From: Symbiodinium natans
Taxonomy: Eukaryota; Sar; Dinophyceae; Suessiales; Symbiodiniaceae
Assembly (NCBI GenBank): GCA_905221605.1
Contig: CAJNDS010002620.1
Location: 248,001 to 312,000 of the forward strand
DNA: 64,000 nt
Direction: 5' to 3'
Below the pieces are notes generated by a model. The model did not search any database. It was not told the DNA's origin and saw only the letters and a program-made list of their open reading frames with translations. The position numbers and the translations under genes were made by a program. This document shows positions 12,835 to 14,890 of the stretch, one piece after another (the stretch's first letter is position 1; each line of letters begins with the position of its first letter).

Positions 12835-14890
12835 TCATACGAGTAGTAACAATAAACATCCCCAAAGCCAAATGACGGTATACTGCATGCCTGGGCCGCG
12901 GGCATCTTTGTACTGTCCTTCCTCGGGTGCGCCCACACGTGGCTTCTACTTCCAGGGCTCGAAGGCCTAAACGAACCTACTCTTTGCTGCTGCTGAAGAA
13001 CCCCAGAAGAATAAAAACTATATATTATCCCTATATTACCCTTAGTCAGGAAGAATGTTTTGCAGATTTTTTGGTGGTTCTGAAGCAATTCGTAGGAACG
13101 CCTCGAGCCCAGAGCGCCGTGTCAAAATTGTCTGCAATCGGGCCGCGTATCTTCGCCCATCGGCCCAGGTGAAGATACCGTGGCCGTGCATGCGATTGTT
13201 GACCTTGTAGATTGTCAAGGTTTAGAGGGCCAGCGATCACACAACCCATCACAACCCTAAACTGCGGAACTGGCTGCCTGAGTGTTCAGGGGCCGCAACC
13301 AACCCTAAACTGCGGAACATCTCAGCCGACGGCCCATTGACCTTCGTATCTTCTTCGGTCCCCCTGCAACAGCCAGTTGCTAGGGTTTCAGGCTTCAGGC
13401 CTGTGAGGATCTCTTGCATTCTGCAGGTTTCTGCAGGCAACGGGCGCACCCAAATGTACAAACCCTCGCCGTTGATCTCGTTGTTGCTGAATCCTCCCTG
13501 TGCGAAGTTTGGATCGGGTTTGGATCAGGCTTCTTCAGTTCTTCTTCCAATGTCCATGCAGTCGCTGCATGTACCAGGGACTCGTTTGGGTATCCAAGCA
13601 CTTTCATGGCCATAAGCATTGTCCTCGTAGCTCGAGCCATCGGCCCACATGAAGCTACCGTGTCCGTTCTTCTTGCCGTCCTGACGCCAAATGGAAACAG
13701 TAACGTCCTGGAGCGATGCTGCGGACCGAGTGCCAGGCTACATAGTCGCCCTGGTATCTAGCACCTGCAGATGAAATCTGTGCAACTGACAGGCACGTCA
13801 GAGACGAGGACCGGAAGTCGCCGGCGCAACTCAGCACGAATGACTACGACTGCAGCTCTGAGAGCGCAACCGTCCGGCCAAATTTCGATGCCCTTTCCAT
13901 GCCTTCACTTGGGTGATCTTGGGTGCTCGTCCCTGAAGGCTCAACTGCGTAGTCCCTCACATTCCGATCTCCAAGCAGCCGGCTGCTTATCATCTCTCCA
14001 CTGGCCCTCGTACTTGGAGCCGTCAGCATGCTGATACCTGCCCAGCAGGAATGGGTACAGTGTGGGTACAGTACGGGTACAAGTACGGGTACAGTATATG
14101 GGTACAACTTCACAGCAACTTCAGAGCTGAGGCTCCAACATGCCCTGGCCGTGAGCCTTATCCTCGCGCCACTGACCCTCGTAGACCTCACGGAAGAGCG
14201 TCACTGCTCCCATCTCCTCTACACCCCCTTTGGCCACCCCCCTTGCACTGGGCACTTTGCATCGCCATCGATGTGTTCGAAGCGCCCGTAGCCGTGGGCT
14301 TTGTCGCTCAACTGGCGGGCTGCGCTTACGCGCCCGACAGCTTTGCGTCTGGTCTACCACGTCTATGAGAGACCATGACAGAACAAAAGAGCTTGTCACG
14401 CAAACTCTCCTCATATGCCCTCTTCTGATCAACTCACGCATCATGCCGCAACACAAATCTCATCAAGTCTCCGGAGGCGCACCCACTGCCCAACGTATCT
14501 GGCCCCGTCGGTCCACAACTGGCAGGCGCGGCATCCAAGCGCGGCATCCAAGGCAGGCTCAAGACTTCAGGAATCTTCAACTTGGAGGTCCATGGTACTC
14601 ATTAACCAAAAACTGTATTGATAACAAGGGGCTTATGAGTGGGTTATAAGTACAGCTAGAATTGGTTAACAAGAGCCATGAACCCTTCATCCGGGCTCCG
14701 GGCCTGCTCGCCGTGGCCTTGCCTCATGTCGCCCACCCTGAGCCAGTGGATACGTTATTGCAACTGCAGCTTCAAGGCAGACCACAGGCCTAAGAAAGCC
14801 TATTAAACCGCAGCGCACGCGTGAACCCAGAGCCATGACCCTGGCTGAGGTCCAGGCCAGGAGCCTGCGTACGTGGCGCCGTTCTCATAC
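12835..14890 (-). CDS. MORN-repeat protein, at least 13 micro-exons
   Basis: A chain of about eight MORN repeats (Y-E-G-x-W ... H-G-x-G ... W-x-D-G pattern), 183 residues visible. Exons in coding order: 14858-14890, 14704-14737, 14483-14518, 14261-14311, 14140-14186, 13984-14037, 13871-13902, 13742-13764, 13624-13680, 13450-13497, 13331-13363, 13147-13203, 12877-12921 (open to a TGA at 12835). Joined exons keep frame and repeat spacing throughout, e.g. DGARYVGQW|LSDKAHGYG and GLYIW|GDRRRYEGQWA|VNN. Donors are GC at five introns, GA at one, GT at six; all acceptors are AG. MORN proteins usually bind membrane lipids or act as scaffolds in flagella and cortex; the specific role here is unknown. 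The 5' end is not found. The 3' end may be the TGA, giving a hydrophobic tail (VIWLWGCLLLLLV), or another exon may follow. Confidence 0.85.
13498..13623 (-). other. GA-AG intron in the MORN gene
   Basis: The upstream exon ends TGGCTCGAGCTACGAG and the intron begins GACAATGC. It ends GCACAG, and the next exon starts GGAGGATTC. Joining them reads SSYE|GGFSNNEINGEG, a complete MORN core. No GT or GC near the boundary preserves the repeat, so a GA donor is the simplest reading. Confidence 0.75.
14187..14260 (-). other. GC-AG intron in the MORN gene
   Basis: The intron begins GCAAAGTG directly after codon GAT and ends CCGTGAG before GTCTACGAG. The join gives HIDGD|VYEGQW, with the D-G-x-x-Y-E-G spacing seen in the other repeats of this gene. 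Confidence 0.75.

Follow-up and report, generated by a model that had tools for sequence, protein, structure and literature searches.

Analysis of a 64,000-nt stretch of Symbiodinium natans DNA (hereafter, the window) confirms, at the level of DNA-based tests, a predicted micro-exonic MORN gene on the minus strand, which in the final model comprises 18 exons, 17 introns and 718 coding nt. Intron density in this gene reaches 23.7 introns per kb, the median internal exon measures 35 nt, and the encoded protein consists of about nine 23-residue repeats followed by a conserved C-terminus. The account that we consider highly probable as a whole is that of a working nuclear MORN gene whose micro-exons would have been produced by repeated intron gain after gene duplication. 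MORN proteins are generally membrane or cytoskeleton scaffolds, and the predicted protein would most likely be one as well.

The gene was reconstructed by splice-aware alignment of a cyclic profile built from 23 MORN repeats of solved proteins; GT, GC and GA were allowed as donors and AG as acceptor. On the minus strand of positions 12780-15330 the alignment scored 195 bits in an unbroken 23-residue register, compared to a mean of 13.9 and a maximum of 20.1 bits for 300 dinucleotide shuffles of the same stretch. Among 95 other window stretches the maximum was 35.7 bits, obtained for two overlapping stretches that carry more of the same MORN gene, and the next score was 17.9 bits. Without introns the MORN stretch yielded at best 40.2 bits, and with GT donors alone it yielded 85.7 bits and the MORN protein was not rebuilt. 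The initial model contained 13 exons of 24-57 nt (14889-12898, minus strand) encoding 176 residues without gaps or stops, bearing out the proposal of the sequence-only reading that 13 small exons can be joined with unbroken phase and MORN spacing; the MORN HMM search it had suggested identified Pfam MORN (PF02493) in the joined exons 1-16 (206 aa) with an E-value of 1.6e-58 and 191.5 bits against a cut-off of 22.5, in 7 stretches. In the final model exons 1-13 end at 12904, sum to 523 nt and encode approximately 174 residues, so that, comparing totals only, the final figures replace the 183 residues and the end at 12835 of the earlier reading.

Five further exons, spanning 2299-1282 on the minus strand and including the stop codon, continue the gene beyond an intron of 10.6 kb. 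These were missed by the sequence-only reading. Exons 14-16 maintain the MORN register past the long intron, exons 17 and 18 were located by eye in the translation, guided by the C-terminus of the paralog C1861, and no internal stop or frameshift was found across the 18 exons. The 18-nt exon 13 ranked first among 214 stop-free 18-nt candidates between exons 12 and 14, scoring 12.7 bits against -1.1 for the runner-up. The gene start and N-terminal exons were not found upstream of exon 1 in the window by tblastn with the upstream reading frames of the paralog C1782: the 5,027 matches, 2,530 of them antisense, were rejected as N-terminal exon candidates, the best sense matches (E 0.001, 0.007 and 0.009) being neither collinear nor convincing next to a best antisense match of E 0.003.

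Predicted exons of the MORN gene, its long intron and the satellite array therein (window positions; borders compared to paralog C1782)
Feature	Position	Strand	Length	Remarks
Exon 1	14858..14890	-	33 nt	acceptor placed as in C1782
Exon 2	14704..14737	-	34 nt	donor position common to C1782
Exon 3	14483..14518	-	36 nt	acceptor AG|T, like exon 4 an exception to AG|G; both borders common to C1782
Exon 4	14261..14311	-	51 nt	acceptor AG|T; both borders common to C1782
Exon 5	14140..14186	-	47 nt	both borders common to C1782
Exon 6	13984..14037	-	54 nt	acceptor position common to C1782
Exon 7	13871..13902	-	32 nt	donor position common to C1782
Exon 8	13739..13764	-	26 nt	both borders common to C1782
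Exon 9	13624..13680	-	57 nt	both borders common to C1782
Exon 10	13450..13497	-	48 nt	both borders common to C1782
Exon 11	13334..13363	-	30 nt	acceptor position common to C1782
Exon 12	13147..13203	-	57 nt	neither border found in C1782
Exon 13	12904..12921	-	18 nt	best of 214 candidates; neither border found in C1782
Intron 13	2300..12903	-	10,604 nt	contains 69-bp satellite; C1782 has no intron at this position
Satellite array	3846..12367		8.5 kb	69-bp tandem satellite inside intron 13; about 120 units; strong strand asymmetry
Exon 14	2277..2299	-	23 nt	donor position common to C1782
Exon 15	2089..2127	-	39 nt	both borders common to C1782
Exon 16	1890..1923	-	34 nt	both borders common to C1782
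Exon 17	1459..1486	-	28 nt	located by eye; both borders common to C1782
Exon 18	1282..1352	-	71 nt	stop TGA 1284-1282; acceptor position common to C1782

Several features outside the alignment model appear to support the predicted junctions. The checks described here (AG|G, intron positions in C1782, repeat order and the C768 query) did not take the junctions as input, all of them being DNA-based inference. The 17 introns have 11 GC, 4 GT and 2 GA donors, from the donor set imposed by the model, and 15 of their acceptors read AG|G, where AG was imposed and the following G was not. Across five MORN genes AG|G occurs at 50 of 53 predicted acceptors (against strand-specific background frequencies of 0.275 and 0.312), and across ten family genes at 87 of 94, with 52 GC, 32 GT and 10 GA donors; departures from AG|G elsewhere include 3 of the 15 acceptors of C389 and 2 of the 13 of C1793. 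For Symbiodinium natans, the accessible portion of PMC10666404 reports AGG at 97.1% of acceptors and GC, GT and GA at 58%, 23.6% and 18.4% of donors. An automatic comparison with C1782 found 10 of 15 intron positions to be exactly common, with 0.34 expected; once exons 17-18 are included, common positions amount to 12 of the 17 in the MORN gene and 12 of the 16 in C1782. In-register identity to C1235, C1752 and C1861 is 49%, 50% and 69%, respectively, against 33-44% out of register. When the protein of C768, which encodes the domain in one open frame, was used as query in place of the MORN profile, it recovered 9 of the 10 acceptors and 8 of the 10 donors that it spans before the satellite; beyond the satellite, recovery dropped to 1 of 5 for acceptors and donors alike, and exons 14 and 17 were not returned. 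This query scored 136.9 on 1261-15330, compared to a maximum of 26.2 in 20 two-base-block shuffles of the shorter 12780-15330. The genome also contains 205 exact DinoSL copies and none of the reversed pattern, in agreement with the earlier attribution of the MORN gene to a dinoflagellate.

These independent features bear on whether the splice model, permissive in accepting three donors and AG, could have assembled a gene from MORN-like debris. As such an artefact would predict, scores on this stretch remain as high as 81.1 and 106.7 bits when two wrong sets of donor dinucleotides are substituted, but the true donors, at 195 bits, score above both these sets and the shuffle maximum, and neither AG|G nor the common intron positions were inputs to the model, leaving us to regard an artefact as extremely improbable. 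A decaying pseudogene, in which fragments of a dead MORN copy, perhaps broken by the satellite, resemble exons, is also improbable, if less remote. In its favor, the exons are predictions from DNA, the start was not found and an 8.5-kb satellite lies inside one intron. Set against this, the 18 exons are free of internal stops and frameshifts, and the comparison with C1782, in which 139 of 206 residues are identical (67%), indicates constraint: 67 of the 139 amino-acid-identical codons carry synonymous differences, and over 206 codons dN amounts to 0.24, with dS not computable. The exons after the satellite retain the repeat and positions common to C1782, but their constraint rests on 32 codons only (dN 0.29, dS 0.70) and seems weaker than dN alone suggests.

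Because 16 of its 17 introns measure 58-403 nt, the gene fits intron definition. The transcript would be spliced at dinoflagellate sites (G[C/T/A]...AG|G), mostly by intron definition across short introns. The 10,604-nt intron between 18- and 23-nt exons would be hard to splice, fitting neither intron nor exon definition comfortably, and would demand very tolerant splicing or stepwise removal. The expectation of the sequence-only reading that exons this small need intron definition or special signals fits the short introns and does not cover the long one, and the search for special signals was negative: a strong extended consensus is absent from the raw base counts around 53 donors, and among the 5-mers in the tails of 52 introns from five genes none exceeded the mononucleotide-shuffle maximum as a branch-point motif.

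The satellite within the long intron has 499 matches in the genome; among the matches listed, most are in this window, and small arrays are present on contigs such as C1745, C1858, C1959 and C2012. Descent of the satellite from the 69-nt coding repeat was rejected, since array stretches without gene exons score at most 17.9 bits, and the equal length of the 69-bp and 69-nt units is taken as a coincidence. A 276-nt satellite stretch in gene orientation folds worse than all 200 of its shuffles (z +2.45). Other repeats were observed in the window, including a segment of approximately 2.75 kb in two tandem copies at 57093-61735 (two 300-nt reference stretches are 100% identical), interstitial telomere-like heptamer arrays (CCCTAAA / TTTAGGG) at 32659-32961, 34305-34721, 40641-40924 and 52525-52573, which are also found upstream of the C768 gene, and a 49-base run of almost pure G at 15454-15502. 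Parts of intron 2 (14519-14703) match the neighboring 10 kb and may belong to a dispersed repeat.

The sequence-only reading described a single gene, and that gene stands, but at least six more MORN genes with small exons were missed. Gene models place the median internal exon at 39 nt in C1782, 49.5 in C85, 37 in C389, 49 in C1793 and 37 in C1235, and the MORN1-like C2340 is finely split too. Other relatives are divided less: the four internal exons of C1752 measure 66-217 nt, C768, which is one repeat shorter, is nearly unbroken, with a single intron behind the open frame that may be spurious, and C2239 shows no break in the portion covered (repeat 4 onward; 2,500 N). Micro-exons are no necessity of the repeat, since MORN genes on contigs C2322, C2008 and C711 hold five or more repeats in one exon. 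A kinesin search, run as a non-MORN comparison, returned 98 matches in both single-exon and split genes, a survey that very small exons would escape. In the family comparison C1861 is partial (3,999 N in its locus), and C2290 was left out because its model equals that of C389; the two contigs carry MORN models with identical exons and residues, perhaps reflecting an unmerged haplotype or a recent duplication. L001, L003-L007, C162, C2232, C1202, C2206 and the MORN1-like C2340 were excluded as other MORN groups, and with further MORN places outside the comparison (e.g. C1839, C694, C1934, C1768, C767, C252, C2200, C879 and C38) the family may be larger.

Sister genes are finely split at different points. 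The MORN gene has a single intron position in common with C85 (of 11 introns; 66% identity), two with C389 (of 15; 67%) and two with C1793 (of 13; 56%), and none with C1235, C1861 or C1752, although four C1235 positions lie within 3 nt of MORN gene positions, making some sliding or misplacement possible. Positions are scattered over the repeat, as the sequence-only reading had recognized, and do not recur at the one repeat position that duplication of one exon per repeat would require. The ten family genes, eight of which have introns in the 621 nt compared, jointly contain 73 distinct intron positions in that interval, and this number makes it probable that most introns were gained after duplication. 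Most introns would thus probably be younger than the duplications, and the fine but differing splits point to repeated intron gain, and not to one inherited pattern. Several nodes of the family gene tree are weakly supported. In the scenario we favor, introns were gained repeatedly in each gene copy after duplication, giving rise to the micro-exons; C1782, the closest copy by intron positions, would have kept most of them, and copies of equal protein identity hold different ones.

These differing positions could instead descend from an ancestral gene packed with introns, each copy having lost different ones. A few positions are widely common (five genes have R1.17.0, and three each have R2.23.0 and R4.21.1), and the near-coincident positions of C1235 could reflect sliding or misplacement. 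That ancestor, however, would have carried exons averaging 8.4 nt, with 30 of 72 under 6 nt, and 59 positions remain even when those within 3 nt of one another are merged, so that we assign ancestral loss little probability. Whether introner transposons inserted and made the introns concerns the mechanism of gain, and would complement repeated gain, not oppose it. Introners have been reported from dinoflagellates in the available parts of PMC11453091 and PMC10666404, and stretches of 44 and 50 nt in intron 2 resemble places in the neighboring 10 kb (L012) with 80-89% similarity. The comparison, which covered introns against one another, the window and fetched DNA, detected no match between introns of the MORN gene at E 0.1. 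At intron ends, inverted repeats and site duplications were no more frequent than expected by chance in 52 introns taken from five genes, a set that excludes the 10.6-kb intron. Some introners lack these signatures, according to the accessible text of PMC9860276, and old or signature-free introners may still be compatible with the data. Overall, we consider introners an unlikely source, although one with an appreciable chance.

Exon lengths are far more even than random placement of introns would produce. Over 80 internal exons from six genes, the shortest of 12 nt, the mean coefficient of variation of length is 0.41 against 0.89 for random placement, 3 exons are under 15 nt against 21.7 expected, and no random set out of 10,000 reached this evenness. 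Omitting C1782 (65 exons) leaves a coefficient of 0.41, with 3 exons under 15 nt against 17.5 expected. Very short exons may be misplaced by the aligner, and wrong borders there could inflate the evenness; unseen exons are unlikely to explain it, since the MORN gene was reconstructed without missing residues. The even lengths and the scarcity of exons under 15 nt suggest selection against unspliceable exons, whereby insertions leaving pieces below about 15 nt would be removed. More tentatively, and with considerable doubt, introns might accumulate independently in each paralog until near-even pieces of about 40 nt remain, with a floor of about 12-18 nt, the limit being set by a spliceosome whose mode differs from both classical exon definition and simple intron definition.

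Dinoflagellates are already known, from the accessible parts of PMC11453091, PMC10666404 and PMC4201569, to be rich in introns, to use GC donors and AGG acceptors and to gain introns rapidly. As excerpted from PMC10666404, Symbiodiniaceae genes resemble the MORN gene in their GC/GT/GA donors, in AG|G acceptors (96-97% in three Symbiodiniaceae) and in having many introns per gene, but their mean exon is 98.7-120.4 nt (106 in Symbiodinium natans), against the 35-nt internal median here. The high rates of gain described in the available text of the review PMC11453091 are likewise comparable, whereas the MORN introns differ from the dinoflagellate introners treated there in that inverted repeats and site duplications were detected at their ends only at chance level. 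Different introns in related copies are also found in the peridinin-chlorophyll protein genes of Symbiodinium, for which the accessible part of PMC4201569 gives three introns, in contrast to 73 positions in ten genes of the MORN family. Such splitting, such scarcity of common positions among equal-identity paralogs and such even spacing were not met in the literature searched, which mostly comprised papers outside subscription, and none on dinoflagellate microexons was on the subject by title. The MORN family represents an extreme form of the intron gain known from dinoflagellates, and not a new kind of system.

The solved MORN1 structures 6t69, 6t4d and 6t4r, from Toxoplasma, Plasmodium and Trypanosoma, have the 23-residue repeat in common with the present gene. 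No register stands out in the comparison with the MORN1-like C2340 (32-42% identity), and the present gene probably belongs to another subfamily.

The MORN genes of Symbiodinium natans are a warning that genes of this type may escape gene finders that impose a minimum exon size, and that an 8.5-kb satellite can sit between exons of 18 and 23 nt. They provide a natural series in one genome, in which a domain is nearly unbroken in one copy and interrupted by 17 introns in another, and copies of equal identity with mostly different positions can reveal both intron gain and the smallest usable exon. If the proposed accumulation of introns to a lower length limit is true, the dinoflagellate spliceosome would fix the limit at which intron gain stops.
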